DNA of 64,000 nt from Chloroflexus aggregans DSM 9485. Lineage in GTDB: Bacteria; Chloroflexota; Chloroflexia; Chloroflexales; Chloroflexaceae. Under the pieces are notes generated by a model. It was not told where the DNA came from. It did no database searches and worked only from the letters and a program-made list of their open reading frames with translations. A program made the translations under genes and the position numbers. The DNA lies in assembly GCF_000021945.1 (NCBI RefSeq), contig NC_011831.1, forward strand, positions 4,167,353 through 4,231,352. The letters are read 5' to 3'. Positions 15,882-37,150 of this stretch are shown piece by piece (position 1 is the first letter of the stretch; each line of letters opens with the position of its first letter).

Positions 15882-15912
15882 TCACATTTGTGATATGCCT
15901 ATCTGCTACAAT
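15882..15912 (+). promoter_or_regulatory. Promoter/operator region of the type III-A cas operon
   Basis: The 12-bp inverted repeat TCACATTTGTGA (15882-15893) is followed after 13 bp by a -10-like TACAAT (15907-15912), 57 bp before the cas10 start. The box and spacing match those of the lipoprotein gene at 11314-11343. Confidence 0.5.
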
Positions 15913-15969
15913 ATACGTGATCGTTTTGTTGTTGGTCGCGGCGTAGATCTGAAAATGGAGCACGAGCCT

Positions 15970-18129: not shown

Positions 18130-18181
18130 GACCGGGAAGTTATAGTTGGTGTGTCGTTAGGAACAGCAAAGGAGGTCGTTC

Positions 18182-18640
18182 ATGATGAATCGTCCGTCGT
18201 CGGGTGAGCAACGCGAGTCGGTGTCAATCAGCGCGATCAGTTCGGAAAATCTGCAAAAGATCCTTGGTGGCAATACTCCCGAGGCAATCAATTTGCTGAT
18301 CGAAGAAGCTGATCGGCTAGGCAGAGCATTGAAGGAGAAGAATTTGACCACCTCGCAGATCCGCAACATTTTTGGTGAGGTCCGCTCGATTGAGCAAGAG
18401 GTGCGGGTTGGTACCGAGAAGTTACCGCTTTCCGTTCAGCGCCGTTTACTCATGCTCAAACCAAAGATGGCGTATCAGGTCGGACGCTTCGGTAACAATC
18501 AAGCGTTGAGGGCCTTGGTCGAGACGCTCTCAGCAGCCATTGACCGGGTTGGTGATGATGTCGGACGGTTTCACACGTTTGTCGATCTGTTCGAGGCTAT
18601 TCTCGCTTACCACCGTTTCTACGGCGGTCGCGCCAATTAG
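18182..18640 (+). CDS. csm2: Csm2, small subunit of the Csm effector complex
   Basis: 152 residues, alpha-helical, matching Csm2: LTTSQIRNIFGEVRSIEQ in the middle, LLMLKPKMAYQVGR, and a C-terminal FVDLFEAILAYHRFYGG. Csm2 lines the inside of the complex along the crRNA-target duplex. AAAGGAGG precedes tandem ATGs at 18182 and 18185; either may start. It lies 52 bp after cas10. Confidence 0.92.
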   Translation: MMNRPSSGEQRESVSISAISSENLQKILGGNTPEAINLLIEEADRLGRALKEKNLTTSQIRNIFGEVRSIEQEVRVGTEKLPLSVQRRLLMLKPKMAYQVGRFGNNQALRALVETLSAAIDRVGDDVGRFHTFVDLFEAILAYHRFYGGRAN

Positions 18641-18659
18641 TGATGAGGAGGTTTCAGTC

Positions 18660-19472
18660 ATGACGCGCTCGGTTACGCTACACGGTCGCATCATCTTTCG
18701 CGCCAACATCGAACTCCTGACCGGTCTCCATATCGGTGGCGCTGCCGGTGGACTTGAGATTGGGGGCTTGGATAAGCCCGTGATCCGCAACCCACGCACC
18801 AATCAGCCCTACATTCCCGGTTCATCGCTGAAGGGCAAGTTACGTTCGTTGTTGGAAAAGGTCTACGGCGCACCGCAAACCTTCCGCGTCAACGAGGGGG
18901 TCTTCGTGCATGTGCCAACCAACGAAGAAGAGTATACGCGCTATCGCCCAATTGCCGGCGTGTTTGGAACTTTGCCCAGTCACCAAAAATTGACCATCAG
19001 TGTACCAACCCGCCTGGCGATGCGCGATGTACCGTTGACCGAAGAATCGGAACAGGAGTTGCGTCAGTTACGCACCGATCTGCCCTACACCGAAGTGAAA
19101 TGGGAGGCAGCCATCGATCGGGTGACATCGGCGGCAGCACCGCGCCAAATTGAGCGTGTCCCGGCGGGCGCGGTCTTTGGCCCGGCAGAGGCAGTCTATA
19201 GTGTCTATGTCGGTAACGGTGAGCAGGTGAGCGAGGTGGTGGCGCTATTCGGTACGTTACTCGAAGCCTTTACCTATCTGGAAGACGATTATCTGGGCGG
19301 AATGGGGTCGCGGGGCAATGGCCAAATTCGCCTGTGCGACGTAACGATCATGGCGCGTCGGTTGCAGGCCGGTAGTATCAGCGAGCCGCAAGCTGTGGCG
19401 CAGGCATCCTCGCTGCGTGAGCTGAATCGTGAACAGGTGATCAAGCACTTACAGCAGATCTTTGCGGAGTAA
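18660..19472 (+). CDS. csm3: Csm3 (Cas7-group RAMP), target-RNA nuclease and backbone
   Basis: 270 residues. LTGLHIGG near residue 20, YIPGSSLKGKLRSLLEKVYG near 55, TEVKWEAAIDRVTSAAAPRQIERVP in the middle and the Gly-rich GGMGSRGNGQI loop are all classic Csm3 motifs. Asp38 in GLDKPVI corresponds to the catalytic Asp33 of the Streptococcus thermophilus protein, so periodic target-RNA cleavage should be intact. A strong GAGGAGG precedes the ATG. Confidence 0.95.
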   Translation: MTRSVTLHGRIIFRANIELLTGLHIGGAAGGLEIGGLDKPVIRNPRTNQPYIPGSSLKGKLRSLLEKVYGAPQTFRVNEGVFVHVPTNEEEYTRYRPIAGVFGTLPSHQKLTISVPTRLAMRDVPLTEESEQELRQLRTDLPYTEVKWEAAIDRVTSAAAPRQIERVPAGAVFGPAEAVYSVYVGNGEQVSEVVALFGTLLEAFTYLEDDYLGGMGSRGNGQIRLCDVTIMARRLQAGSISEPQAVAQASSLRELNREQVIKHLQQIFAE

Positions 19473-19476
19473 GCGT

Positions 19477-20568
19477 ATGCCAACCTTTACCGTCTATCGG
19501 CTTGTCCCTCCGCACAACACCGCAACGCTCGCCTTCCACTTCGGGCGGCAGGGGATTGGGCTGGAAGAGACGAGCGAGACGCTCGCTTCCGATTCGCTGT
19601 TCGCCGCGCTGGTGGTGCAAGCGGCGCTAAGTACAGCCGAGGTTGGCGATGACGGCGCACCGGCGTGGGTGCGACCGTTTATGCACGGTGAGCCACCATT
19701 GCGTCATAGTTCACTGCTGCCGGCCATCGGTGAGCTACCATTGCTACCGCGACCGCTGTTGCCGTTGCGTCTTGCCGAGACGGCTACGGTGCAGGCGAAG
19801 CAGTTGAAGAAACTGCGCTATCTTTCACCGGCCTTGTTTGCCGCCGCTTGCCGTGGTGAGGCGTTGCCGGCGACAATTATCGCGCTCCAACAAGGTAAAG
19901 TCTGGCTGACCGAAGCCGAAGCGCGCTGCTTACCGACGCCGTGGCGTCCGGCTGCCAATGAGAGTGACGAGGCGTGGCGCAAACGACTGAAAGTCACCCC
20001 GCTCTGGCAGATCGAAGCAACCCCGCACGTGGCGCTCGACCGGCTTAGTGCAGCGTCGGCGTATTACGAAGTGGGTCGGGTCGTTTTTGCAGCGGCGGTG
20101 GGACTGCACGTGCTGGTCGCGTTTCACGATCTCGCCGCTCAACCCGTCTTTGAACGATTGTTGACTCTGCTCGGCGAGAGTGGGTTAGGTGGGAAGCGAA
20201 CGTATGGCTACGGTGTGTTTGCGTGGCAGCGTAGCACGCTCACCATTGACTTCCCCACACCGCATCGCCACGCCGTCTTGCTCTCGCGTTACCTGCCGAC
20301 GCCCGCCGAGCTGGCGTTGGTTCGCGATCCGCGCTCGACCTATCAGTTGGTCTCCAGCAGCGGTTGGTTTCTGGCGGCCAACGGCGTGACCTACCGACGC
20401 CAAACGGTCATGATGGTGAGCGAAGGATCGGTGTTGGCGATCAACGACGGCCAACTCCCCCGCGGGCACATCATTGATGTACGGCCCAACGATACGGTAG
20501 CGCACCCGATTTATCGGAGCGGTATGGCGTTGGCCGTACCGGCGCCGGAAGTGGCATTCGAGAGCTAA
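19477..20568 (+). CDS. csm4: Csm4 (Cas5-group RAMP), crRNA 5'-tag cap
   Basis: 363 residues. The N-terminal ferredoxin-like strand YRLVPPHNTATLAFHFG and GLEETSETLASDSLFAALV are typical of Csm4. A Gly-rich GLGGKRTYGYGVF loop lies near residue 240. Csm4 holds the 5' repeat tag of the crRNA and contacts Cas10. It starts 4 bp after csm3. Confidence 0.93.
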   Translation: MPTFTVYRLVPPHNTATLAFHFGRQGIGLEETSETLASDSLFAALVVQAALSTAEVGDDGAPAWVRPFMHGEPPLRHSSLLPAIGELPLLPRPLLPLRLAETATVQAKQLKKLRYLSPALFAAACRGEALPATIIALQQGKVWLTEAEARCLPTPWRPAANESDEAWRKRLKVTPLWQIEATPHVALDRLSAASAYYEVGRVVFAAAVGLHVLVAFHDLAAQPVFERLLTLLGESGLGGKRTYGYGVFAWQRSTLTIDFPTPHRHAVLLSRYLPTPAELALVRDPRSTYQLVSSSGWFLAANGVTYRRQTVMMVSEGSVLAINDGQLPRGHIIDVRPNDTVAHPIYRSGMALAVPAPEVAFES

Positions 20569-20629
20569 GGCGGGCGTCTGCCCATGACAACTATCGTTGT
20601 CGGTTGTCGGTGTGCTAGAGAGGAACCCT

Positions 20630-22045
20630 ATGCCTGCACCTAATCGTGTGTATCGCTTGCAGATCGAAACGCTCAGCCCACTCTGCATCTTGAGTGGCGG
20701 GCGCTTGTATGAGGAGGTCGATTTTTACATCGATCAGAACAACAAGACCACCTACGTCATCAACAGCAATGCCGCGCTTGAGCTGGCGTTGCAGCGGTGG
20801 GTCGGTCGGCAGCCTTCGCCTGAACAGCAGCGCGCCAGGTTGATGGAGCGTAAGGAACGGTTGGAACGGCGCAAACAGCAAAATAAGAACGAAATCAAGC
20901 GGTTTGATCAATCGCCGCCGCGTGATCCGGTCAAAGCCGAGCGTGAAAAACAGCGGCTAGAGACCGAAGCGGAGAAGATCAAACAGGAATTTGCCAAATT
21001 ACGCGCCGAATGGGAGGAGTTTGAAGCTACCGGCGGCCAAGGGCCGGCGGTACCACCGGAATTGTTGGCTAACAGCGGTGTGAGCGATCTTCTGACGAGC
21101 AAATTGCTGACCACTGCCGATTTCACCGCCGACTCACCGATTGTCCGCTATAGCTACACCGGTACGCCCGAAGTCAAAACCGGACAGAGCGAGATACTGG
21201 CGTGTGTAAAAGACGTATACGACCGCCTCTATGTGCCCGGTTCTTCGCTCAAAGGAGCGTTGCGCACCGTCTTGGCGTGGGCTTTGGCACCGACTCGTGC
21301 AGCACAGCAACCGCTAAGCTTCACCGCTGCGAACGACAACCGTAAAGCTGCCGCTCAGATCGAGCAGGCAATCTTCCACGGACTCAAACAGCAAGACGGG
21401 AAACGGGTGAGCCACGCACTTCTGCTCGACGTACTGCGCACCGTGCATATTGGCGATAGCCGACCGCTTGCGCAAGCCCCGGTGCTCTTACAGGTGCGGG
21501 TCTTTCCCAAAGGATCACCGATCACGGTCGAGGCGATCCCCGCCGGTGTTACCTTGACGGCAGTGTTGCAGATCGAGCAATACCCGTTCCAAAGTCCTAT
21601 CGCTCGCCAGATCATCGATTTTGGTGATTGGGCGACATACCTGCAACCGGCGCAGATCGCCGCGTGGGGACGGCAGCGGGCGAAAGTCTTGATTGAGTCC
21701 GAGCAACGCTACTTCAATGGCCGCGCTGACGCTGCCAACCTGAGCAAGTTCTACGCCGACCTCAGATCACGCCTCGATCAGCTCGACGGTACGAATGCCT
21801 TTCTCGCCCCAATCGGCTGGGGGGCCGGATGGCAATCGAAGACCCTCGCCGACCGGCTACGCGATACCCCTCAACGTGAAGAACAGTTCGTGCAGGCGGT
21901 AAAAAAATACAACATGAAACTCAACCACCAGCGTTCGGAGCGCTTCCGCGCCCATGATGTCTTTCCGGCTACCCGCAAAGTGATCGTGCGTAACAAACAG
22001 GCTTTGTTGCCGTTGGGATGGGTGTGTATCACCATTGGTGACTGA
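20630..22045 (+). CDS. csm5: Csm5 (Cas7-group RAMP) with a coiled-coil insertion
   Basis: 471 residues. The N-terminal RAMP strand YRLQIETLSPLCILSGGR and the Gly-rich LYVPGSSLKGALRTVLAWAL near residue 205 identify Csm5, which sits at the 3' end of the crRNA and helps its maturation. A highly charged Lys/Arg/Glu segment at about residues 65-125 is predicted coiled coil and inserted between the two. A GAGAGGAA site precedes the ATG after a 61-bp gap from csm4. Confidence 0.9.
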   Translation: MPAPNRVYRLQIETLSPLCILSGGRLYEEVDFYIDQNNKTTYVINSNAALELALQRWVGRQPSPEQQRARLMERKERLERRKQQNKNEIKRFDQSPPRDPVKAEREKQRLETEAEKIKQEFAKLRAEWEEFEATGGQGPAVPPELLANSGVSDLLTSKLLTTADFTADSPIVRYSYTGTPEVKTGQSEILACVKDVYDRLYVPGSSLKGALRTVLAWALAPTRAAQQPLSFTAANDNRKAAAQIEQAIFHGLKQQDGKRVSHALLLDVLRTVHIGDSRPLAQAPVLLQVRVFPKGSPITVEAIPAGVTLTAVLQIEQYPFQSPIARQIIDFGDWATYLQPAQIAAWGRQRAKVLIESEQRYFNGRADAANLSKFYADLRSRLDQLDGTNAFLAPIGWGAGWQSKTLADRLRDTPQREEQFVQAVKKYNMKLNHQRSERFRAHDVFPATRKVIVRNKQALLPLGWVCITIGD

Positions 22046-22058
22046 GAGGAGCAGCGCA

Positions 22059-23534
22059 ATGACCATCTTGATCCTGTGCAATATCGGGAACAGTGACCTG
22101 ATTGCCGACGGTCAACGACCTTCCCGTCCGCGACCCGAAGGGCAGCAGCTCTGGGATGAGTTCACCGCGCATCGGTTTGAGTTGCCGATCATTACGCCGT
22201 GCTTGGAGTACATCCGCAATCGGTATTCCAATGAACCGGCGCGCCTGATCTGCTTTTACACCGACCAACCCGAACGCCCGGGAACGACCCGACCGGATCG
22301 CTTTGGCGTGAGTCTGCGTGACAAAGACACGATCTGGTTTGCCCATATTGCCGCTCGCCTGGTGCGTGAGCAGTTTACCGACTGGATCGTCGAGGCGCGC
22401 CCAGAGCGGATTGAAGGCTCGCAGGGGGCCGATCTCAACCCAAGCATTTACGACGAGGTATTTGAAGCCTACGCCGGTCTGGTAGCGCGGCATAACAAGC
22501 CGGAAGTAAGTACCTGTTACGTGCTCACCGCCGGTGGGATCCCCGCCTGCAACTTTGCCCTCCAACTGCAAGCTAGCATCGCCTTCGCCGAGCGTTGTCG
22601 GTTCGTCTACCCACCGGAAGGGGGGCGTGTTACCGAGCTACGTATCGGTGAGAAGCTACAAGAATCGTTCCAGCGCGTCAATGCAATGGAGGCGCTCAAA
22701 CACCGCAATTTTCCGGCGGCCTTACTCAGTGTGCGCAGCGCGAAGATGTCGGAAGCGATCATCCACCTGCTGGAGTATGCCGTTTATCGCGAAGCCTTCG
22801 ATTTTCACCGTGCGCAGCATACGATTGCATTGGCAGAACGGTGGGCGAGTGGTGAGTTGCGCGATCTCTGCGCTACGTTACACGATGATCTGCTGCCCTT
22901 GATCAACAATAAAGATGCAGCGGCGCTCCTCCGTGAGGTGGCCTACAGCGCCGAAATTGCTGCTCGCAACGGGCGCTACGCCGATATGCTGGGCCGCATC
23001 TTCCGGTTTCAAGAGGGAGTACTGCGGTTTGTGGTCGAACGCTATCTCGGTTTGCCAACCGATATGAGCAAAGCGGTACGTGAGGCGAACCTGGCCTCCT
23101 ACCTCGCTCAGATCGACGGCAATCCACATCTTCACCAATACCTTGAACAGAAAACGATTGATAATCAGCCGTTGCGCTATCGTGATGGGCCAAACCGTCC
23201 GGTGATGCAGGCGATGCTCGAGTTCGTCAGCAACGGTGGCTTACGCGCCGATGGGCCACCGTTTGCTCACAAAAAAGAGCGTGAGCGCCTCGCCGGCGTG
23301 AAAGCACTTCTTGACCGGCTCGACCGCCTCGCCGAGTTGCGCAATCAGAGCGTGATTGCCCACGGCTTTGCCGGCGTTTCGCAAGATACGATCAACGAAG
23401 TGTACGAAGGTGGTGTAGACAAGATTATTGACGATCTCCGCCGTGTCCTCTATCTGTTAGACATTCAACAGCTCCAATCGCCGTTTGAGCTGATTGCCGA
23501 TAACGTCAGTAAAGTGTTGCAGCGCGGGGTGTAA
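22059..23534 (+). CDS. csm6: Csm6-like CARF-HEPN ribonuclease, copy 1
   Basis: 491 residues. The N-terminal CARF-type Rossmann domain (LILCNIGNSDL at the start, YVLTAGGIPACNFAL near residue 158) should sense cyclic oligoadenylate made by Cas10. The C-terminal HEPN domain has RNQSVIAH near residues 427-434, fitting the R-x4-6-H RNase motif. Csm6 is an auxiliary effector that degrades RNA non-specifically once activated. GAGAGGAG precedes the ATG; it follows csm5 by 13 bp. Confidence 0.9.
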   Translation: MTILILCNIGNSDLIADGQRPSRPRPEGQQLWDEFTAHRFELPIITPCLEYIRNRYSNEPARLICFYTDQPERPGTTRPDRFGVSLRDKDTIWFAHIAARLVREQFTDWIVEARPERIEGSQGADLNPSIYDEVFEAYAGLVARHNKPEVSTCYVLTAGGIPACNFALQLQASIAFAERCRFVYPPEGGRVTELRIGEKLQESFQRVNAMEALKHRNFPAALLSVRSAKMSEAIIHLLEYAVYREAFDFHRAQHTIALAERWASGELRDLCATLHDDLLPLINNKDAAALLREVAYSAEIAARNGRYADMLGRIFRFQEGVLRFVVERYLGLPTDMSKAVREANLASYLAQIDGNPHLHQYLEQKTIDNQPLRYRDGPNRPVMQAMLEFVSNGGLRADGPPFAHKKERERLAGVKALLDRLDRLAELRNQSVIAHGFAGVSQDTINEVYEGGVDKIIDDLRRVLYLLDIQQLQSPFELIADNVSKVLQRGV

Positions 23535-23538
23535 TACG

Positions 23539-24975
23539 ATGGAAGCGCTTTTAGTCTGCAACGTAGGGAATCGTGATCTCGATTGCACGGCCTTGCCGAA
23601 ACGAACAAGCGAACGGCAATGGGCGCAAGCTGCGTTGGCACAATACGATAAGCTGCGGACAACGTTTCAGTTACGCATTATCGCCAAGGCCTTGCGCTAT
23701 CTGGCCGAACGCGACGTGACGCTGGAGCGGGTAGTGTTGATCGCCTCCGATCAACCTGTTTCCGTCGGTGAGCAGTTTTACCAAAGTGATACCGTGTATA
23801 CTGCCCAGATCATCGCCCGCTTGCTCGCCGATGGCTTGACCCCCTACCCGCCGGTTGATCCGACGCGCATCGAGACGTGGATCATCCAAGATGAGCACGG
23901 GACTGGCTGTGACCCGTCGGACTACGACCTAACCCTGCGCTTTCTCGAGCGGCGGTTGCTGAAATTGGCCGCCGAATATCCGAAGCACACCGCATTTCTC
24001 GAAGTTACCGGAGGGACGCCGGCAATGACGACCGGTCTGCTGATTGCCGGGACGGAAGCGTTCGGTGGGCGGACCGAAGTGCTATCCATCCACCCCACCC
24101 AATCGACACCCATCGCCCTCAACACCGGTCGGCGTCTCTTGGCTACCCCGCTCCGCGCTACGCTCCTTTCCAACGCTGCGACCTACGCCTATGCCGCTGC
24201 CGTCAGAACCTTGCTCGAACAAGAGGCGATCATCACCGACCGGCTCGATCCGGTGGCGGCCAAACTGCTCGCACCACTGCTGGCGTATGCTCACCACCGC
24301 TTCAACTTCGATTTCGCCAGCGCGCGCCGAGTGCTCGATAAAGCCGAGCCAGCCGGGCCGTGGCAAGCCGAATTCACCAAGCTGCGCGCGCAGGTGACTG
24401 AACCCGACCGCCGCATGCGGTTGGCGGAAGTGGTTCACGCAGCGGCGGCCCGCTACGATATTGGTCTCTATGCCGATTTCTTGACGCAGCTCGTCCGCTT
24501 CGAAGAGAATCTGCTCCGCTACCTCTGCTTACAGCACGGAGTACGGTTCCGCAGTCGCCAATACACCATTGATGAAGATGGCCCCTACCTTGACCGTGAA
24601 TGGCTGCAACGCCAGTCGTTTACGCTCAGCCGAGATCGCGATCCGAGCCGCGATCTGCTTGTTGACCGTTCGGTACTCCGCGAACTTATCGGTCGTTTAT
24701 CCGACCTGACCGATCCCCGTCAGCAGCAACTGCTCAAAGACATCGATCGGCTTGGGGAGTTGGTCAAACGGCGCAACGAATTGACCCATAACCTTGCCGG
24801 GGTGCAAAAAGTCGGGCTGGCCCGCGCCTTTGCCGGCCCAGACGCCGCCTCTACCGCTGCCGACGAGATTGTGCCGCATCTAAAACGGCTCTATGAGCAG
24901 GCGTGCAAACAGTCGCTCCCGCCATCGCCCTACCGGCATATCAACCACCTCTTGGCGCAACTGCTGCGGCAGTGA
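23539..24975 (+). CDS. Csm6-like CARF-HEPN ribonuclease, copy 2
   Basis: 478 residues, the same architecture as the preceding gene but strongly diverged. The CARF motifs are LLVCNVGNRDL at the N-terminus and LEVTGGTPAMTTGLLIAG near residue 158. The HEPN motif RRNELTH lies at about 411-417. It begins 4 bp after copy 1 and is probably translationally coupled. The divergent CARF pocket could prefer a different cyclic oligoadenylate, or the two could form a heterodimer. Confidence 0.9.
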   Translation: MEALLVCNVGNRDLDCTALPKRTSERQWAQAALAQYDKLRTTFQLRIIAKALRYLAERDVTLERVVLIASDQPVSVGEQFYQSDTVYTAQIIARLLADGLTPYPPVDPTRIETWIIQDEHGTGCDPSDYDLTLRFLERRLLKLAAEYPKHTAFLEVTGGTPAMTTGLLIAGTEAFGGRTEVLSIHPTQSTPIALNTGRRLLATPLRATLLSNAATYAYAAAVRTLLEQEAIITDRLDPVAAKLLAPLLAYAHHRFNFDFASARRVLDKAEPAGPWQAEFTKLRAQVTEPDRRMRLAEVVHAAAARYDIGLYADFLTQLVRFEENLLRYLCLQHGVRFRSRQYTIDEDGPYLDREWLQRQSFTLSRDRDPSRDLLVDRSVLRELIGRLSDLTDPRQQQLLKDIDRLGELVKRRNELTHNLAGVQKVGLARAFAGPDAASTAADEIVPHLKRLYEQACKQSLPPSPYRHINHLLAQLLRQ

Positions 24976-25010
24976 CTATGCATACAAAGAACATACGCTA
25001 CCAAGCCATA

Positions 25011-25016
25011 TATAAT
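25011..25016 (+). promoter_or_regulatory. Possible promoter for cas6-cas1-cas2
   Basis: TATAAT lies 61 bp upstream of cas6 in the 102-bp AT-rich gap after the second csm6-like gene. No clear -35 hexamer is seen. Confidence 0.35.
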
Positions 25017-25077
25017 AGTTACAGGAATATGGTACCTTTACAACCGAATCAATGCGTTACAGCTCACGAGGTACAGT

Positions 25078-25938
25078 ATGCCGCAAGCCATCGTCTTCAC
25101 CCTACGGCCGGCCGGAGCAGGACGAGCGCCCGGTAATCTCAGCCGGGCTGCCCATGCCGCCGTACTTCGTCTCATTCAGCGCGCCGATCCCCAGCTTGCT
25201 GCGCGCATCCACGACGATGACGGACGCAAACCCTTGACCGTCTCGAACGTCTGGGGGTTAGGTGGTGGTCCTTCAGTGCTTGTCGATCCTGAACGTGACT
25301 ATCACTTGCGCGTCACGCTCCTGAGCACCGAACTCGAACAGATCGCTGTCGAATGGACACCAGAACGGATCGGCGCGCTCGAACTTGATGGCCTGCCGTG
25401 GCGGGTGATTGCCCGCGCCGATACGGTTGCCGAGCATCCGTGGGCCAATCGGGCCGACTATCAGGAACTCGCCGCACCGCTGCTCCGGCGGCCCGACCGC
25501 TTACCCAACACGTGGACGCTCGAATTCGCCGCACCGGTCACCTTTCGGCAGCGCGGCATGACGATGCCACTACCGCTGCCCGATCTCGTATTCGGCAGCC
25601 TCCTCGAACAGTGGAACGCCTCGGCAGAGCTGGCCCTACCCGATGAAGTCCGCCGTTACGCTACCGAATGTCTGGCGATTAGTCGTTTCGACCTGCGTAG
25701 CGTAGCCGTACCGACAAGCGGTGGTGCCATCCAAATCGGCGCATTGGGGCGGTGTACCTATCGGGCAATGACCGGTGATCGATACTGGCGCGCCTGCATT
25801 GATGTACTCGCGGCTTTCGCTTTCTACAGTGGGGTTGGAGCCGGCACCGCACGAGGGTTTGGGCAAACACGACTGGTACCGGCTCCTCACCCTGAACCAA
25901 ACCGATCAACCACCAATGGCGACACTCTACGTGATTGA
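25078..25938 (+). CDS. cas6: Cas6, CRISPR repeat-processing endoribonuclease
   Basis: 286 residues. The C-terminal Gly-rich loop GVGAGTARGFGQTR is the Cas6 hallmark, and His26 in the N-terminal ferredoxin-like domain (LSRAAHAAVL) is a candidate catalytic residue. It should cut within each repeat after the GTGA-loop hairpin and leave an 8-nt 5' tag ATTGAAA(C/G) on crRNAs. Its 3' end overlaps cas1 by 23 bp. Confidence 0.9.
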   Translation: MPQAIVFTLRPAGAGRAPGNLSRAAHAAVLRLIQRADPQLAARIHDDDGRKPLTVSNVWGLGGGPSVLVDPERDYHLRVTLLSTELEQIAVEWTPERIGALELDGLPWRVIARADTVAEHPWANRADYQELAAPLLRRPDRLPNTWTLEFAAPVTFRQRGMTMPLPLPDLVFGSLLEQWNASAELALPDEVRRYATECLAISRFDLRSVAVPTSGGAIQIGALGRCTYRAMTGDRYWRACIDVLAAFAFYSGVGAGTARGFGQTRLVPAPHPEPNRSTTNGDTLRD

Positions 25939-26935
25939 ACAAGGCGCTGAAATCGGTTGCGATGGCGAACGGATCGAAGTGCGCCGGGGGGCCGACATTA
26001 TCGGCAGCGTACCGTTGGTCAAACTCGACGACATCGTCATCTTTGGCAACGTCGGCATCAGTACGCCGGCGATGAAACGACTGCTCGACCGCGGCATTGA
26101 AGTTACCTTCATGACGGTTGATGGGCGTTATCAGGGTCGCCTCATTGGGCAGGTCACGGCGCATGTCGCCCTTCGCCATGCGCAATACGCCTGTGCCGCC
26201 GATCCGGCGCGGGCGCTTGCCCTTGCCCAACGGTTCGTCGAGGGCAAACTACGCAACCAACGCGCACTACTACAACGGTTCAGCCGCAACCGGGCCGAAC
26301 CACCACCGGAAGCGCAGGCGGCGGCAGACGATCTTGAGGCCTATATCAAGCGGGTAAAACGCACAACGCAACTCAGCTCACTACTGGGGGTAGAAGGCAG
26401 TGCAACCGCACGCTACTTTGCCGGTCTACGCAGCCTGATCGGGCCGGAATGGTCATTCAGCGGACGCCAACGACGCCCACCACCCGACCCGGTCAATCTG
26501 CTCCTCTCGCTCGGCTACACCCTCTTGGCGCACAAAGTGCTAGGGGCGGTACAGGCAGCCGGGTTCGACCCATATCTCGGCTTCTTACACAGCCTTGACT
26601 ATGGGCGGCCTTCGCTTGCGCTCGACATAATGGAAGAGTTTCGTCCAATACTCATCGACTCGCTGGTCGTGCGCATCTGCAACGACGGGCGCATCCGACC
26701 CGAACACTTCCGGCCGGGTGAAGGTGAGCGACCGATCATCATCACCGACGAGGGCAAACGGGCATTTCTCACCGCGTTTGAAGAACGCATGCGAACCGAA
26801 GCCACCCATCCCGAAGGCGCGGACAGTGGGCCGGGCAAAGTACCGTACACGCGCTGCATCGCGTTACAGGCCAGACGACTAGCGCGGGTGGTGCGTCAAC
26901 GCACCGACGACTACGAGCCATTTGCCGTTCGATAA
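25916..26935 (+). CDS. cas1: Cas1 integrase
   Basis: 339 residues. The metal-binding residues are all present: Glu160 (GVEGSATARYF), His225 (YLGFLHS) and Asp237/Glu240 (ALDIMEEFRP). With Cas2 it inserts new spacers at the leader end. It is not fused to a reverse transcriptase. The start at 25916 begins the canonical MATLYVIEQGAEI strand and lies inside the cas6 end. Confidence 0.95.
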   Translation: MATLYVIEQGAEIGCDGERIEVRRGADIIGSVPLVKLDDIVIFGNVGISTPAMKRLLDRGIEVTFMTVDGRYQGRLIGQVTAHVALRHAQYACAADPARALALAQRFVEGKLRNQRALLQRFSRNRAEPPPEAQAAADDLEAYIKRVKRTTQLSSLLGVEGSATARYFAGLRSLIGPEWSFSGRQRRPPPDPVNLLLSLGYTLLAHKVLGAVQAAGFDPYLGFLHSLDYGRPSLALDIMEEFRPILIDSLVVRICNDGRIRPEHFRPGEGERPIIITDEGKRAFLTAFEERMRTEATHPEGADSGPGKVPYTRCIALQARRLARVVRQRTDDYEPFAVR

Positions 26936-26950
26936 TAAAGGAGCGGTTCC

Positions 26951-27232
26951 ATGCTCTACCTTATCAGCTACGATATCAGTGTTGATCGGCGTCGGCTCAA
27001 GCTAGCCAAACTCCTCGAAGGGTACGGCCAGCGGGTCTTAGAGAGTGTCTTTGAATGCGATCTGGAGGCAAGTGCCTACCGACAGCTCAAACAGAAACTC
27101 AGCCGTCTCATCAACGTCGCCGAAGGCGACCGGCTACGCATCTACCAACTCTGCGGCATATGCCGACACAACGTCGAGATCATCGGCGAAGGACCACCGC
27201 TCGAAACGAGTCACGACGTCTACATCTTCTAA
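26951..27232 (+). CDS. cas2: Cas2, adaptation complex subunit
   Basis: 93 residues with the usual ferredoxin-like fold. It begins LYLISYDIS, has VLESVFECDL in the middle and DRLRIYQLC near residue 60. Preceded by AAGGAG and 15 bp after cas1. It is the last cas gene before the leader. Confidence 0.95.
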   Translation: MLYLISYDISVDRRRLKLAKLLEGYGQRVLESVFECDLEASAYRQLKQKLSRLINVAEGDRLRIYQLCGICRHNVEIIGEGPPLETSHDVYIF

Positions 27233-27380
27233 GTGGCGCGCAATCGCACCAGAAAAGGAAAAACCTCAACAAAAATCGGCAACAACCGTGCAAAACGCTT
27301 AACAATTATTGCGGCACAGCCGGTCACCGCGCAAAACGGGTTATGGAGGGCCTTGCAAAGCGGTAGACGATGTGGTACCC
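27233..27380 (+). promoter_or_regulatory. CRISPR leader
   Basis: A 148-bp non-coding stretch between cas2 and the first repeat, containing an A/T-rich first half. By position and repeat orientation it is the leader carrying the array promoter and the integration anchor. I could not assign promoter hexamers with confidence. Confidence 0.7.
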
Positions 27381-30300
27381 CTTCAAAACACCAAAATCCC
27401 CGTGAGGGGATTGAAACTGATACCGTACGATATACGGTGTACAAGATAATGTACAAGATCCTTCAAAACACCAAAATCCCCGTGAGGGGATTGAAACCCA
27501 GATACCGGGGGCACTGTTGACCTCGAACACAAGTACCCTTCAAAACACCAAAATCCCCGTGAGGGGATTGAAACCGCGGTAGCCGTCCATTGCAAAAATG
27601 CCGTAGTGCGTCTTTCTTCAAAACACCAAAATCCCCGTGAGGGGATTGAAACTCTAGAACTCCACCAGAGCTTGCTCCGCCATGCGGATAAGCCTTCAAA
27701 ACACCAAAATCCCCGTGAGGGGATTGAAACTGTACAGTATGTACACTGTACGTACACCAACAAATACTTGCTTCAAAACACCAAAATCCCCGTGAGGGGA
27801 TTGAAACGAAAGAGCTACGGAACAAGCTATACTCCTTTGATATTGGTGACTTCAAAACACCAAAATCCCCGTGAGGGGATTGAAACCCAGACTGGAAGCT
27901 GCCATCCCAAAAGCGGCAACGTTTCTTCAAAACACCAAAATCCCCGTGAGGGGATTGAAACCAATATCAAACGAGACACTGCCGACCTCCTCGTTATCTT
28001 CAAAACACCAAAATCCCCGTGAGGGGATTGAAACCGGTTTGTACGCGACCACTCATCGAGTACTCGTTGGATACCTTCAAAACACCAAAATCCCCGTGAG
28101 GGGATTGAAACATGGGAGGATCGATCGCAGTCTTACTAAAACGACCCCATCCCTTCAAAACACCAAAATCCCCGTGAGGGGATTGAAACTTAAAGAAGCC
28201 GTTCTGCAGGGTACCGACCTCTATAAAGCTTCAAAACACCAAAATCCCCGTGAGGGGATTGAAACGGCAGGAACGCCGTTTACGACCGTGTACACCGACA
28301 CTTCCTTCAAAACACCAAAATCCCCGTGAGGGGATTGAAACCGGTATGATCCGGCAACGAATGTATCCGTTACTGGATCGTCCTTCAAAACACCAAAATC
28401 CCCGTGAGGGGATTGAAACCGGTATTATCCATACCGTTGACAAACAGGGCATATGCCTGCCTTCAAAACACCAAAATCCCCGTGAGGGGATTGAAACTGG
28501 AGATGGCCGCACCATACAAGTGCGGCCATCTCCAGCTTCAAAACACCAAAATCCCCGTGAGGGGATTGAAACTCATATGTCCCTGCTTGCAACAAACTGC
28601 CTGACTCCGACTTCAAAACACCAAAATCCCCGTGAGGGGATTGAAACCTGAGAGCCAGCCCTGACGTCCTTTCTCCCTCAGTGAGGCAACTTCAAAACAC
28701 CAAAATCCCCGTGAGGGGATTGAAACCACCATTCCGTCTCGCCCCCGCAACCGACGGAGCATCCCACTTCAAAACACCAAAATCCCCGTGAGGGGATTGA
28801 AACCGACGGTTATGTCGTGGATATTAAAACGGGAAAGCGAGTAGCTTCAAAACACCAAAATCCCCGTGAGGGGATTGAAACGTAGCGCAAACGGTGGTTG
28901 GATGGGCTGCACCCATACGTCGAGCTTCAAAACACCAAAATCCCCGTGAGGGGATTGAAACTTGTGCTGGAGCGCGAGTTGGAGCAAATGTACATTCCCT
29001 TCAAAACACCAAAATCCCCGTGAGGGGATTGAAACTGATGATGTCGTCGAAGTAATCGAGTTATAAAAAAAGAAGGAGGACTTCAAAACACCAAAATCCC
29101 CGTGAGGGGATTGAAACTCGTTTGTTAGCGATACCGTTGTCGACCAAGCAGACCAACTCTTCAAAACACCAAAATCCCCGTGAGGGGATTGAAACCGATG
29201 GTCAAGGCTCTATGTAAGGAAGTCCCTAGCGCCTTACCTTCAAAACACCAAAATCCCCGTGAGGGGATTGAAACGTACCGCGATGCGTGGTGGTGGTTAT
29301 TGCTGCTTTTTGCCTTCAAAACACCAAAATCCCCGTGAGGGGATTGAAACGCTATCATTCTTTGGAGATCACCGGCGAGCAACTCCTGCTTTTCTTCAAA
29401 ACACCAAAATCCCCGTGAGGGGATTGAAAGGTATTTGTAATTGTTTTCGCTAAGCCGGAAATTGATTTACCTTCAAAACACCAAAATCCCCGTGAGGGGA
29501 TTGAAAGTTGACGAGGGCTGCACGGCTGGAAGCCGGAGTCTCTCCCTTCAAAACACCAAAATCCCCGTGAGGGGATTGAAAGCGGTTGAGGAAGTACCTC
29601 CTCATACTGTGCTCGCGTTCCCTTCAAAACACCAAAATCCCCGTGAGGGGATTGAAAGACAGAATACCGACACACCGGTTCGACCGCTGGTGAAACCGCT
29701 TCAAAACACCAAAATCCCCGTGAGGGGATTGAAAGCGATCAGATAACAGTGTTCGGAGAGCCGGATTACCTTTGCCCTTCAAAACACCAAAATCCCCGTG
29801 AGGGGATTGAAAGTCGAAAACAGAGACCGCGTTGCTAAACGCGGTCAAGGCACTCACTTCAAAACACCAAAATCCCCGTGAGGGGATTGAAAGAGGCGAG
29901 AGACATCGAGGTGAGGGGAACGAGTATCTGTATACCTTCAAAACACCAAAATCCCCGTGAGGGGATTGAAAGTCATCATCAACCGCATTGCTGATTCGGA
30001 TCATTGTTTGCATCTTCAAAACACCAAAATCCCCGTGAGGGGATTGAAAGACACACATCGCCCTTTTATACCCGCCGACACTCATTCCTTCAAAACACCA
30101 AAATCCCCGTGAGGGGATTGAAAGTTGAACACCGTCCGGTTGTTGGCGGTAGCCGTCACCGTGTCCTTCAAAACACCAAAATCCCCGTGAGGGGATTGAA
30201 AGACTCTTCGGTTGTCAGATATGACCACGGCGGCATCATACCTTCAAAACACCAAAATCCCCGTGAGGGGATTGAAAGCAACGTCTCTGCCACGCAGTGC

Positions 30301-33300
30301 GGAGATACGTCGATGTTAACACTTCAAAACACCAAAATCCCCGTGAGGGGATTGAAAGCGCCTGCACACTAAACCCGACACCACATCCCAACATGAGCTT
30401 CAAAACACCAAAATCCCCGTGAGGGGATTGAAAGCCTTGTCAGCCGTCCATGGGTGGCTGGCCGTGGTGAGCCCTTCAAAACACCAAAATCCCCGTGAGG
30501 GGATTGAAACATATTATCCCACTCAAGGTCAAGCAACGCCTTGTTCCACTTCAAAACACCAAAATCCCCGTGAGGGGATTGAAACGATCAGATGAATCAA
30601 CTTAAGATACTGGTGTATGCTCCCTTCAAAACACCAAAATCCCCGTGAGGGGATTGAAACGAACAAAGTCACGATTGCAGCAGACCAGAAACCTGCTGCA
30701 ACTTCAAAACACCAAAATCCCCGTGAGGGGATTGAAACACATGCTGCTGCTCAACCGCGCAGCGGAGTATGCTGCCTTCAAAACACCAAAATCCCCGTGA
30801 GGGGATTGAAACACACCGGCACAGCGGGTCGCACAGAACCGTCATGGGTACCTTCAAAACACCAAAATCCCCGTGAGGGGATTGAAAGCTTCATTGCTAC
30901 TGGCCACGACGTGGACGGCCTTGTCAGCCGCTTCAAAACACCAAAATCCCCGTGAGGGGATTGAAAGGTGTTACTGATCATGATTGCCGTTTGCATCGTT
31001 TTTTCCTTCAAAACACCAAAATCCCCGTGAGGGGATTGAAAGCGGCAGGACGTACCGGCAGAACGTACCGACAATACAAGAACCTTCAAAACACCAAAAT
31101 CCCCGTGAGGGGATTGAAAGTTCAACGGTGCTCGTTCTGCCCACCGTATTGCCCCTTTCGCTTCAAAACACCAAAATCCCCGTGAGGGGATTGAAAGGGA
31201 AGTACTCGGCGCGCGCCTCCATGATGGCTTCCAACGGGTCTTCAAAACACCAAAATCCCCGTGAGGGGATTGAAAGTGCAGACGCACGTCGGTGGTTGGT
31301 ACGGCTTACCGTTTCTGCTTCAAAACACCAAAATCCCCGTGAGGGGATTGAAAGTACTGCACTATCCTATGCTCCTCGTGTAGACGAGAAGCACAGGCTT
31401 CAAAACACCAAAATCCCCGTGAGGGGATTGAAAGAACACCGGTGAAAAAACCCGCATGTGCGCGGTATACGTTGCTTCAAAACACCAAAATCCCCGTGAG
31501 GGGATTGAAACAATAACTTGATGAGCGTCTGGCGACGCTCATCATTGCGCTTCAAAACACCAAAATCCCCGTGAGGGGATTGAAACTGACTAATGCTGTC
31601 ACGCTCGTTATCGATCACGCCGCTGTGCCTTCAAAACACCAAAATCCCCGTGAGGGGATTGAAACGAAAAATTATTGTTATCGTCGCATCCATATTATTA
31701 TCGCTTCAAAACACCAAAATCCCCGTGAGGGGATTGAAAGTTAGTTGAGAGATTGGCTGCCCCGGAAGGGCGTAGTCGCTTCAAAACACCAAAATCCCCG
31801 TGAGGGGATTGAAACCCAATAAAAAAACGGTATTTACTGCTTCCATACCGGTATCCTCTTCAAAACACCAAAATCCCCGTGAGGGGATTGAAACTTATTG
31901 CCAGCCGGTCAAATTCGGCAAGCACATCTTCAATCTTCAAAACACCAAAATCCCCGTGAGGGGATTGAAACCCGTACTTCACGGGGCGACCGACCACAAG
32001 GTCGGTTTTTGCTTCAAAACACCAAAATCCCCGTGAGGGGATTGAAACCGGCTTCTTTGTAATCGACCGATACCGATCCATCACAACATGAACTTCAAAA
32101 CACCAAAATCCCCGTGAGGGGATTGAAACACGACACAATGTCGACGCATCCCCCACCATTACCCCGCGTGCTTCAAAACACCAAAATCCCCGTGAGGGGA
32201 TTGAAACGTACGTTATCGCGTGGTTGACGGTAGGACTGTTGGTGTACCTTCAAAACACCAAAATCCCCGTGAGGGGATTGAAACGTTTGAATAAGGGGCA
32301 TCTGTAAAAAGTCCCCCAGCGCCGCTTCAAAACACCAAAATCCCCGTGAGGGGATTGAAACGAGGCATGGCAGATACTCGATAGACGGACGTTTATGACC
32401 TTCAAAACACCAAAATCCCCGTGAGGGGATTGAAACTGAAAACAATTGACTTGACAAGTAATTTGACAAAAAAGACCTTCAAAACACCAAAATCCCCGTG
32501 AGGGGATTGAAACCTGATCCGTTACCAGTGTCCAACCGTTGACACTGGTATTTGTCACTTCAAAACACCAAAATCCCCGTGAGGGGATTGAAACACCGCG
32601 ATGGCGGCACTCATCGCGGTTACGATCGGTTTTTACTCTTCAAAACACCAAAATCCCCGTGAGGGGATTGAAACTTATTACGGAACAAACCATGCGTCGA
32701 AAAACCGATGTCCTGTAGACCTTCAAAACACCAAAATCCCCGTGAGGGGATTGAAACCCCGGTCTGGGTACGCTAAGACCACAAACATTGAGACATTATC
32801 TTCAAAACACCAAAATCCCCGTGAGGGGATTGAAACTTTATTTCTTATAGTCCTTTAGCGTCTCCCTCCAGTTTGGCTTCAAAACACCAAAATCCCCGTG
32901 AGGGGATTGAAAGATCATAAATTGTTGTAGCGACCGGAAATATCCGGTCTAACTTCAAAACACCAAAATCCCCGTGAGGGGATTGAAACCCGAACGTATG
33001 TTGTTGCAAGCACCTCGCTTGCCTTTGTCTTCAAAACACCAAAATCCCCGTGAGGGGATTGAAACTGTATACGCTATCGTTGCGGGTGTACCGATCACGC
33101 CTTTCGCTTCAAAACACCAAAATCCCCGTGAGGGGATTGAAACGCAAACACCCGCATATTCGCGGTATACGTTGTCATATCGCTTCAAAACACCAAAATC
33201 CCCGTGAGGGGATTGAAACTATCATGTCTCGTAATAAAAGTGATACCTGCCACCTCAAACTTCAAAACACCAAAATCCCCGTGAGGGGATTGAAACGCTG

Positions 33301-34441
33301 CGTAATTATGTTGAAGTACTCGGCGCAAGCGGTATCCGCTTCAAAACACCAAAATCCCCGTGAGGGGATTGAAACCCCTGCGTTTTTTGTCACTATGTAT
33401 ACATCGGAGTCGGTCTTCAAAACACCAAAATCCCCGTGAGGGGATTGAAACGACTCATCAACACATAAAGATCGGGGTCTGGTGAGCGGGCTTCAAAACA
33501 CCAAAATCCCCGTGAGGGGATTGAAACGCATCTTTGAGCGCCTTGACGGCGCCCAAAAGTGCCTTTTCTTCAAAACACCAAAATCCCCGTGAGGGGATTG
33601 AAACTTCCTATTCTTATCGGGTTCTACGACTTTGACCGTTTCTCCCTTCAAAACACCAAAATCCCCGTGAGGGGATTGAAACAAGAAGGCACTGGATACA
33701 TTTTTACTCCAGCCGGTTAAGTTTGGCTTCAAAACACCAAAATCCCCGTGAGGGGATTGAAACCTTCTCGGTGCTCCGGTAGAGTACTTGTTACCAATGC
33801 CTCGGCTTCAAAACACCAAAATCCCCGTGAGGGGATTGAAACCTTTCTCATCGCTGGCCACAACGTGGACGGCTTTACTTCAAAACACCAAAATCCCCGT
33901 GAGGGGATTGAAACAGATATGGCATTCGCCGTCTTGTATTGGTAACATACTTAGCCCTTCAAAACACCAAAATCCCCGTGAGGGGATTGAAACGGACGTT
34001 CTCCAAACGCGCATGAGACACAACCCATCAACCTTCAAAACACCAAAATCCCCGTGAGGGGATTGAAACCTTGCACAATCGACTGCTCCAATGTGGCGTC
34101 TGGGTACCTTCAAAACACCAAAATCCCCGTGAGGGGATTGAAACTAAGCTTTCGTTGACGTTGGAATATCGGTATAAGATAACCTTCAAAACACCAAAAT
34201 CCCCGTGAGGGGATTGAAACCTGCCGTCTCCGGCTCCTGCGCCGCTGCCTGTGCTAAGGCACCTTCAAAACACCAAAATCCCCGTGAGGGGATTGAAAAT
34301 GCCGATATTGTTGCCTCCTATACACCTGGGTCGTTTGTCTTCAAAACACCAAAATCCCCGTGAGGGGATTGAAACCAAACGGCAGGAACACCGTTTGCAA
34401 TTGTTTGTACCGTTGCCTTCAAAACACCAAAATCCCCGTGA
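27381..34441 (+). CRISPR. CRISPR array, 91 full repeats plus one truncated repeat, 91 spacers
   Basis: 37-bp repeats start CTTCAAAACACC and end GAGGGGATTGAAA plus one variable base. The core ATCCCCGTGAGGGGAT forms a 6-bp stem with a GTGA loop. Counting every unit gives 91 complete repeats, from 27381-27417 to 34339-34375, and a 25-bp truncated repeat at 34417-34441. Spacers are 35-46 bp. Almost all sequence variation is in the last base: C in repeats 1-26, 41-45, 54-56, 58-71, 73-89 and 91; G in 27-40, 46-53, 57 and 72; A in 90. Orientation follows from the leader side, the cas genes and the ATTGAAAC-type crRNA tag. Confidence 0.98.
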
Positions 34442-37150
34442 TTAATTTGTCGGAACACGGCATGCCGTGTCCCGACAACCCAATGTGCCGTCTCCCGACG
34501 TGCCGTGCTGCCCACCACCACGACCCTCGTGACGTTGTACGGGCGACCTGGTGGGGGCAGGCCCCACCGATTGCACCGGTCACCCAATCGTCGGGGCAAC
34601 CCGGTGGGTCGCCCCTACCTAATCCCCACACGTCGGAACACGGCATGCTGTGTCCTGACAACCCAACGTGCCGTCTCCCGACGTGCCGTGCTGCCCACCA
34701 CCACGACCCTCGTGACGTTGTACGGGCGACCTGGTGGGGTAGGCTCTGACGATCGCACCAGCCCCTACCTGATCCCCACACGTCGGGGCACGGCATGCTG
34801 TGTCCCGACCACCCAACGTGCCGTCTTCCGCCGGGCCGTGTCTGATGATCGCACCCGTCACCTACCCGGTACGGGCGACCCGTCGGGTCGCCCCACCCTG
34901 ATCCCCACACGTCGGGGCACGGCATGCTGTGTCCTGACCACCCAATGTGCCGTCTCCTGACGTGTCGTGCTGCCCATCACCACAACCTTTGTGACGTTGT
35001 ACGTTGTACGGTATGTTGTACGGGCGACCCGACGGGTCGCCCCTACCTGATCCCCACACGTCGGGGCACGGCATGCTGTGTCCTGACCACCCAATGTGCC
35101 GTCTCCTGACGTGTCGTGCTGCCCACCACCACAACCTTTGTGACGTTGTACAGGCGACCTGGTGGGGTAGGCTCTGACGATCGCACCAGCCACCCAATTG
35201 TAGGGGCGACCCGGCGGGTCGCCCCTACCTGATCCCCACACGTCGGGGCACGGCATGCTGTGTCCCGACCACCCAACGTGCCGTCTTCCGCCGGGCCGTG
35301 TCCTGTCGATCGCACCGGTCACCCAATAGTACGGCAGACCCCAGGCCTCGCCCCTACCCTTGTCCCCACACGTCGGGGCACGGCATGCTCATGCTGTGTC
35401 CTGACAACCCAACGTGCCGTCTTCCGCCGGGCCGTGTCCTGTCGATTGCACCGGTCACCCAATCGTTGGGGCAACCCGGTGGGTCGCCCCTACCTGATCC
35501 CCACACGTCGGGGCACGGCATGCTGTGTCCCGACCACCCAACGTGCCGTCTTCCGCCGGGCCGTGTCCTGTCGATCGCACCGGTCACCCAATTGTACGGG
35601 CGACCCACCGGGTCGCCCCTACCCTTGTCCCCACACGTCGGGGCACGGCATGCTCATGCTGTGTCCTGACAACCCAACGTGCCGTCTTCCGCCGGGCCGT
35701 GTCCTGTCGATTGCACCGGTCACCCAATCGTTGGGGCAACCCGGTGGGTCGCCCCACCCTGATCCCCACACGTCGGGGCACGGCATGCTGTGTCCTGGCA
35801 ACCCAACGTGCCGTCTTCCGACGTGCCGTGTCCTGTCGATCGCACCGGTCACCCAATTGTAGGGGCGACCCGGTGGGTCGCCCCTACCTGATCCCCACAC
35901 GTCGGGGCACGGCATGCTGTGTCCTGACCACCCAACGTGCCGTCTCCTGACGTGTCGTGCTGCCCATCACCACAACCCTCGTGACGTTGTACGTTGTACG
36001 GTATGTTGTACGGGCGACCCGACGGGTCGCCCCTACCTGATCCCCACACGTCGGGGCACGGCATGCTGTGTCCTGACCACCCAACGTGCCGTCTCCTGAC
36101 GTGTCGTGCTGCCCACCACCACAACCTTTGTGACGTTGTACAGGCGACCTGGTGGGGGCAGGCCCTGACGATCGCACTAGGCACCCAATTGTAGGGGCGA
36201 CCCGGTGGGTCGCCCCTACCTGATCCCCACACGTCGGGGCACGGCATGCTGTGTCCTGACCACCCAACGTGCCGTCTCCTGACGTGTCGTGCTGCCCATC
36301 ACCACAACCCTCGTGACGTTGTACGTTGTACGGTATGATGTACGGGCGACCCGGTGGGTCGCCCCACCCTGATCCCCACACGTCGGGGCACGGCATGCTG
36401 TGTCCTGACCACCCAACGTGCCGTCTCCTGACGTGTCGTGCTGCCCACCACCACAACCTTTGTGACGTTGTACGTTGTACGGTATGTTGTACGGGCGACC
36501 CGACGGGTCGCCCCTACCTGATCCCCACACGTCGGGGCACGGCATGCTGTGTCCTGGCAACCCAACGTGCCGTCTTCCGACGTGCCGTGCTGCCCACCAC
36601 CACAACCTTTGTGACGTTGTACAGGCGACCTGGTGGGGGCAGGCCCTGACGATCGCACTAGGCACCCAATTGTAGGGGCGACCCGGTGGGGCGCCCCTAC
36701 CTGATCCCCACACGTCGGGGCACGGCATGCTGTGTCCTGACCACCCAACGTGCCGTCTCCTGACGTGTCGTGCTGCCCACCACCACAACCTTTGTGACGT
36801 TGTACAGGCGACCTGGTGGGGGCAGGCCCCACCGATTGCACCGGTCACCCAATCGTCGGGGCAACCCGGTGGGTCGCCCCACCCTGATCCCCACACGTCG
36901 GGGCACGGCATGCTGTGTCCCGACAACCCAACGTGCTGTTTACCGGCGTGCCGTGCTGTCCATCACCACAACCCTTGTGACGTTGTACGTTGTACGGTAT
37001 GATGTACGGGCGACCCACCGGGTCGCCCCACCCTGATCCCCACACGTCGGGGCACGGCATGCCGTGTCTCGACAACCCAACATGCCGTTTCCCGACGTGC
37101 CATGCTGCCCACTATCACGACCTTCGTGACGTTGCACGGGCAACTCGTCG
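34442..37150. repeat. GC-rich tandem repeat field abutting the CRISPR array
   Basis: About 2.7 kb with no credible gene. About 17 copies of a composite unit recur at 127-183-bp spacing, marked by CACACGTCGGGGCACGGCAT. Modules are a near-palindrome around GCACGGCATGC, a block CCCAACGTGCCGTCTCC, a GTGACGTTGTAC block and a palindrome GGGCGACCCGGTGGGTCGCC. Open frames across it are by-products of GC-rich repetition and change with each unit. The field starts inside the last CRISPR repeat and ends shortly before phoU. Confidence 0.9.

Follow-up and report, generated by a model that had tools for sequence, protein, structure and literature searches.

We analysed a stretch of 64,000 nucleotides, hereafter the window, from the genome of Chloroflexus aggregans DSM 9485, which consists of one contig of 4,684,931 bases (NC_011831.1; the window covers positions 4,167,353 to 4,231,352). 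The window carries a type III-A operon of CRISPR-associated (cas) genes (15895-27232, + strand) directly ahead of an array of clustered regularly interspaced short palindromic repeats (CRISPR; 27381-34441, + strand), and several of the 91 spacers in this array form look-alike pairs. These pairs are most simply read as resampling of homologous sequences that are probably coding. The array is built from 91 identical full repeats of 36 nucleotides, each followed by a variable 37th base, and a 92nd repeat that is truncated at 34417; the spacers range from 35 to 46 nucleotides in length (n = 91). The presumed leader (27233-27380, + strand) is the gap between cas2 and the first repeat, at the opposite end from the truncated repeat. 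Because the broken repeat would mark the far end of the array, the leader is placed on the cas2 side and the CRISPR RNA (crRNA) is taken to have the sequence of the + strand, unlike the Rfam matches to the array, which carry the opposite-strand label. No second array with the same repeat was found elsewhere in the host genome when up to three mismatches were allowed.

The type III-A set of cas10/csm1, csm2, csm3, csm4 and csm5 is complete, and cas6, cas1 and cas2 adjoin the array, all on the + strand. The cas10/csm1 gene (15895-18129) encodes a protein of 744 amino acids that is identified by NCBIfam TIGR02578 at 406 bits, by the PADLOC Cas10 model, by the Pfam palm2 and Csm1_B domains and by its motifs. 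It is followed by csm2 (18182-18640; TIGR01870), csm3 (18540-19472; TIGR02582), csm4 (19462-20568; TIGR01903) and csm5 (20597-22045; TIGR01899), each scoring over the cut-off of the model given and matched by the PADLOC model of the same name. Two Csm6/Csx1-like CARF-HEPN effectors are encoded next (22035-23534 and 23494-24975), with PADLOC CARF1-CARF_HEPN scores of 833 and 991 bits, respectively, and TIGR02672 scores under the cut-off. The operon ends with cas6 (25078-25938; TIGR01877 over the cut-off, PADLOC Cas6 models), cas1 (25775-26935; TIGR00287 over the cut-off, Pfam Cas_Cas1) and cas2 (26951-27232, 93 amino acids; PF09827 over the cut-off, PADLOC Cas2). It should be mentioned that the coordinates of csm3 and cas1 are those of mechanically called open reading frames, and that both starts probably lie further downstream.

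In the predicted Cas10 protein, the palm GGDD motif of cyclic oligoadenylate synthesis is located at residue 546, and no HD dipeptide, as expected of an HD nuclease motif, was found in the 744-residue open reading frame. The HD nuclease motif of Cas10 is common in type III-A systems without being universal. Because a GGDD motif without an HD motif is combined here with tandem CARF-HEPN genes, immunity would probably rely on RNA cleavage and signalling. The Cas1 protein was matched in Pfam by Cas_Cas1 only and has no reverse-transcriptase domain, and therefore lacks the fusion that defines type III systems of the RT-Cas1 kind; no search for a reverse transcriptase was made elsewhere in the genome.

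The look-alike pairs had been pointed out in an earlier reading of the window, referred to below as the original prediction, and its spacer coordinates and letters all proved correct when the array was read again. Spacers 53 (31435-31474) and 75 (33144-33182) are identical at 27 of 31 bases; these and all spacers below are given on the + strand. Spacers 46 (30889-30930) and 84 (33843-33877) are identical at 25 of 35 bases, including 19 of 20 in a core that has the same register in both. The sequence common to spacers 59 (31895-31934) and 82 (33683-33726), CCAGCCGGT(C/T)AA(A/G)TT(C/T)GG, is an 18-base core with three differences in a single codon phase, and spacers 12 (28266-28304) and 91 (34376-34416) have in common GGCAGGAAC(G/A)CCGTTT. 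Two more cases had been put forward as resampling, and the bases they share were confirmed, but both are weak. Spacers 50 (31198-31239) and 77 (33297-33338) contain an exact match of 14 bases, with only 2 of the remaining 13 overlapping bases in agreement, and spacer 40 (30435-30473) opens with the 12 bases that end spacer 46. Spacers 3 and 36, a pair absent from the original prediction, also have 12 bases in common.

To put the similarity against chance, as the original prediction had suggested, an ungapped score (+1 for a match, -2 for a mismatch) was compared between the spacers and their dinucleotide shuffles, with 1000 shuffles for the same strand and 300 for the opposite strand. Six same-strand pairs score at least 12, compared with 0.27 expected, and this count was reached in none of 1000 shuffles. 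The corresponding values are 4 against 0.057 at a score of at least 13, 3 against 0.018 at 14 and 2 against 0 at 17 (0 of 1000 shuffles each). On the opposite strand, one pair reaches 12, with 0.31 expected. The similarity of the set thus exceeds chance, and among its stronger pairs the excess is confined to a single strand. When mismatches in one codon phase were forgiven, five same-strand pairs scored at least 14 compared with 0.15 expected (0 of 300 block shuffles), while the single opposite-strand pair at this level (32/80) is an observed count without a shuffle expectation. It is this wobble-aware score alone that detects 59/82. Taken one by one, 53/75 and 46/84 each exceed chance, 50/77 and 12/91 each probably do so and 59/82 is borderline; 12/91, 50/77 and 59/82 carry weight jointly. 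Pairs 40/46 and 3/36 are each compatible with chance.

Other Chloroflexus genomes carry arrays with a nearly identical repeat. Cas10 was matched in seven of eight genus genomes, the window's genome among these, and the genes flanking two of the arrays (G006 and G008) include Csm6-like, Cas6 and Cas1 genes. Eleven array stretches fetched from the genus were combined with the window into a pool of 725 spacers, 714 of which are unique (the window's 91 included). At scores of at least 15, this pool contains 20 same-strand and 3 opposite-strand pairs, compared with 4 pairs in a reversed control and none in a complement-only control, so that the pattern is stronger in the genus than in the window array. 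With a four-member family counted once the numbers become 17 and 3 (p 0.0026), and with a low-complexity pair also removed they become 16 and 3 (p 0.0044). A list of 17 pairs was in addition chosen by hand; it includes the window pairs 59/82, 12/91 and 50/77 and omits one difference-free pair, one low-complexity pair, the extra pairs of the four-member family and cross-species borderline pairs. The differences fall all in one codon phase in 4 of these 17 pairs and all but one in 3 more. Several pairs of the genus show silent differences only, across at least 30 bases.

The peptides of the original prediction are readable in the frames it gave, but other open readings exist besides them, and they do not establish which strand codes. 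Reverse-strand frames give PNLTGW in both 59 and 82, KAVHVVAS in both 46 and 84 and NGVPA in both 12 and 91. For 53/75, where the reverse-strand peptides NVYRAHAG and NVYREYAG had been proposed, the best open frame on that strand is TYTA(H/N)MRVF instead. Frame tests on 46/84, 59/82 and 12/91 found the reverse strand conserved as well or better. Among the 17 hand-chosen pairs, the reverse strand is better conserved in at least 9; the crRNA strand is so in a single pair, 50/77, and the others are tied. A systematic set of 19 genus pairs scoring at least 17 gave 9 pairs in which the strand complementary to the crRNA (the target strand) is better conserved, 1 in which the crRNA strand is, 8 tied pairs and 1 that is free of differences. 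Peptide scores of at least 38 were obtained for 28 target-strand, 21 crRNA-strand and 5 mixed pairs, compared with 0, 2 and 7 in a single shuffle.

Two properties of the individual spacers point in the same direction across the genus. With two training sets, a codon model that assigned the right strand for 62 to 68% of gene fragments from viral contigs chose the target strand for 395 and 396 of the 714 spacers (p 0.005 and 0.004, respectively). A ribosome-binding site followed by ATG is present on the target strand of 21 of these spacers and on the crRNA strand of 7 (p 0.013). Stop-free frames gave no worthwhile difference between strands. Type III interference requires antisense guides (PMC5576922), and by these sequence measures the genus arrays lean toward antisense guides, while the window array by itself gives no decision. 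It is noted that spacer 22, when inspected by eye, resembles the end of a gene followed by a ribosome-binding site on the crRNA strand.

Hairpins are also enriched among the spacers. Six of the 91 window spacers contain a stem of at least 9 base pairs, compared with 0.04 from shuffles; the spacers with perfect stems of 9-15 base pairs are 15 (28498-28535), 32 (29814-29856), 43 (30661-30701), 54 (31512-31549), 67 (32514-32557) and 68 (32595-32637). In 8000 random 40-mers, stems of at least 9 base pairs occur at 0.2% in viral contigs, 0.1% in window positions 1-27000 and 1.2% in positions 36500-64000, and 6 of 91 differs from the last of these backgrounds with P 0.0008. A folding z below -2 was obtained for 19.8% of the window spacers and 11.5% of the 714, compared with 5.7% of 700 40-mers from the window and 6.1% of 700 from viral contigs, which are not known as Chloroflexus viruses. 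The sister arrays are hairpin-enriched too, most weakly in G009. The T or A runs next to the stems face both directions, and no terminator strand is evident.

Protospacers were sought in several collections. The array matched 4 of 50,697 phage records, all with E 7, and 7 of 72,556 plasmid records, the best of which (E 2) is a hot-spring plasmid with a match that begins within the repeat. Pattern scans of viral contigs found no copy of the 46/84 core, the 53/75 core or two cores from G009, and 22 stretches with the 59/82 core, for which the best full-length agreement is 29/40 to spacer 59 and 28/44 to spacer 82. With degenerate peptide patterns, the same contigs gave nothing for 53/75 or for G009a_24/72, and 9 stretches for 46/84, at best 25/35 to spacer 84 and 24/42 to spacer 46. 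In public genomes the 53/75 core was absent and the 46/84 core was found once, in Catellatospora, with 29/42 and 22/35 identical bases; this match was taken as chance. The 725 genus spacers compared with 31 viral-contig loci gave short matches only, and peptides of 22-23 residues obtained by joining spacers 46 and 40, read in three ways, had no match in PHROGs.

The array matched 17 of 41 genomes of the family at E 0.1, with as many as 7 candidates scored in each and 8 of the genomes inspected closer, none of the matches being convincing. Among 158 genomes of the class, at least 23 were matched at E 0.01 among the matches listed, with 2 candidates scored in each and 5 inspected closer. The host genome outside the array region has no array match listed at E 0.1, and the G008 array found no convincing target in 8 genus genomes. 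Four matches at E of 0.01 or below fall in spacers 23, 8, 36 and 80, where about 1.6 would be expected from 158 E-values of 0.01. The matches of spacer 23 (at L021:1501-1531) and spacer 8 (at L022:1501-1528) each agree at 26 of 28 bases, with E-values per genome of 0.003 and 0.006, which is the level of chance. Both lie antisense within defence genes of family genomes, the first in a Csm3/RAMP gene that follows a Cas10 gene and the second in the gene of a QatA-related KAP NTPase; although odd, they are probably due to chance. The other two of the four matches, to spacers 36 and 80, are weak as well. A terminase search for Chloroflexus viruses matched 7 of the 41 family genomes, and both matches within the genus are weak. 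Internal stop codons, TGA in three cases, interrupt the five terminase frames at L061, L062, L063, L068 and L069; the frames may have decayed, been misread in sequencing or belong to a virus with a recoded stop.

We propose, with a probability of roughly 0.7, that the array is a type III-A memory in which the look-alikes are independent captures from homologous sites that have diverged, most of them protein-coding, in mobile elements that recur. Such elements, which are most likely viruses, although plasmids may also have supplied partners, would have yielded the fragments at different times; independent acquisitions at overlapping sites would then leave look-alike spacers in one array. During infection, protection could retain guides of a single orientation that target the same conserved transcripts, the coding strand usually being the one complementary to the crRNA. 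Selection after uptake from both strands would explain why recurrent spacers favour one strand while the bulk bias is weak. For 18 pairs, the 5' ends of the partners are offset by -20 to 16 bases, with 5 pairs within 2 bases. A register fixed by a protospacer adjacent motif (PAM) does not agree with this scatter, apart from a slight excess of equal starts, and PAM-independent type III adaptation, as reviewed in PMC9048733, fits the scattered offsets. The original prediction of repeated sampling in diverging phages is partly upheld, in the excess similarity, in the evidence against duplication given below and in the recurrence across the genus, while a phage origin is what we infer, no convincing protospacer having been found.

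A number of results weigh against this reading. The searches of phages, plasmids, viral contigs, public genomes and class-level genomes together yielded no convincing protospacer. At scores of at least 10, the window contains 14 same-strand and 13 opposite-strand pairs compared with 4.4 expected for each; both strands exceed the shuffles alike at such weak scores, so that only scores of at least 12 inform on strand. Members of four pairs sit in two stretches of the array, spacers 46-59 and 75-84, and this clustering is weak by permutation (P 0.036 for seven pairs and 0.24 for six). When one family of four pairs is collapsed, the genus set at scores of at least 17 gives 6 pairs for the target strand and 1 for the crRNA strand (p 0.125). 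At scores of at least 14 (45 pairs) the numbers are 24 and 12 (p 0.065), or 19 and 12 (p 0.28) from the matched segment alone; at scores of at least 12 (166 pairs) they are 86 and 65 (p 0.10), or 57 and 63 (p 0.65). In the window itself, the four best pairs are split two and two between the strands by their peptide scores, the codon model favours the target strand in 47 of 91 spacers, which is no bias, and a ribosome-binding site with ATG is found in none of the 91.

The partners of a pair might instead derive from paralogous or repeated genes within one mobile element, and a single encounter per pair would then be possible. As no target genome was found, this is compatible with all results, and the amino-acid plus silent differences within pairs would suit it. 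However, the partners of 53/75 and 46/84 are distant in the array, which points to separate times of uptake without implying separate elements, and pairs with silent differences only over at least 30 bases would better fit strains of one gene; we consider a paralogous origin unlikely. Capture at sequence or structural hot spots, in which hairpin sites are taken up repeatedly and coding is largely irrelevant, would agree with the hairpin enrichment, with the hairpin preference of type III-A adaptation reported in PMC9048733 and with the few recurrent spacers that fold strongly, such as G006b_12/46. Recurrent spacers are nevertheless no more structured than the rest, either in the window (13 of 91, p 0.69) or in the pool (36 of 714, p 0.26, the 36 being hand-picked), and structural hot spots are thus unsupported as the origin of the pairs and quite improbable.

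Duplication of spacers within the array followed by mutation has a precedent in the sister arrays, where 11 spacer sequences of the pool are present twice, 6 of these within two three-spacer blocks. Those copies are exact, whereas no exact copy exists among the window's 91 spacers. Moreover, unlike exact duplicates, look-alike partners have offsets scattered from 0 to 20 bases and no neighbours in common; in the window, four of the five main pairs have offsets between 5 and 20 bases, and the ends of the partners are unrelated, as in 46/84 with its 25 of 35 identical bases. We give duplication hardly any weight. Chance likeness among 91 short sequences could account for 40/46, 3/36 and 59/82, which singly are at or near the chance level, but the whole set beats all 1000 of 1000 shuffles and the scores of 53/75 and 46/84 were unreached by shuffles, so that chance is a very improbable source of the set.

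Beyond the proposed independent captures from diverged sites, the type III-A arrays of Chloroflexus might record two separable processes, a hairpin-preferring adaptation and a same-orientation reacquisition at diverged, previously sampled coding sites. We regard this two-process proposal as speculative and rather doubtful. If true, reacquisition at diverged sites would amount to a trace, left in nature, of primed-like adaptation in a type III system, which the review PMC9048733 describes as an open question.

The look-alike pairs are a further example of a known phenomenon. Silent differences between spacers of hot-spring Synechococcus and viral genes were described in 2009 (PMC2612747). In that study, spacers of this likewise hot-spring phototroph differed from variant viral lysozyme genes of Octopus Spring by silent or conservative nucleotide changes. 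Spacers were compared there with virome reads, whereas here spacers are compared with spacers and no viral sequence is involved. A 2016 study of the Mushroom and Octopus Spring mats set Chloroflexus arrays against a mat virome (PMC5017753), and the genomes used include C. aggregans DSM 9485 (NC_011831), C. aurantiacus and Chloroflexus sp. Y-400-fl. A spacer-to-spacer comparison was not found in the accessible portion of that paper, and its main text has 'silent' or 'synonymous' 0 times. An earlier paper on these spacer pairs was not found by titles and the starts of abstracts in a literature search mostly without subscription journals.

In type III systems of Thermus thermophilus, both strands supply spacers, infection then selects for complementarity to transcripts, and for one of two phages most spacers come from an early region (PMC7515739). 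That work followed laboratory infection by known phages, whereas the Chloroflexus array is a natural one with diverged variants and no known targets. Adaptation of the Streptococcus thermophilus type III-A system is likewise PAM-independent and enriched in stem-loops according to the review PMC9048733; unlike those laboratory data, the hairpins here are a statistical enrichment in natural arrays, measured against a background that is not the true targets. Diverged look-alike pairs can inform on invaders, in terms of conserved sites, repeated meetings and divergence, without any known virus. In type III systems, such pairs also bear on transcript-complementary selection, hairpin-preferring adaptation and reacquisition against changed targets, for which the material has hitherto come mostly from laboratory infections.

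Two minor observations concern the array itself and the sequence beyond it. The 37th base of the repeat (27417-34375) switches blockwise along the array, in the order C26 G14 C5 G8 C3 G1 C14 G1 C17 A1 C1. So few runs were obtained in 0 of 20000 shuffles, and the blockwise pattern indicates that this base is inherited together with the repeat. It alternates back and forth in the window array, compared with A99 followed by C44 in a sister array, and the switching may be due to mutation or to recombination between arrays. Directly 3' of the array (34441-36000 onward), there are G+C-rich tandem repeat families with a spacing of 129-265 nucleotides, which carry hairpin-like GGGGCGACCC...GGGTCGCCCC units.

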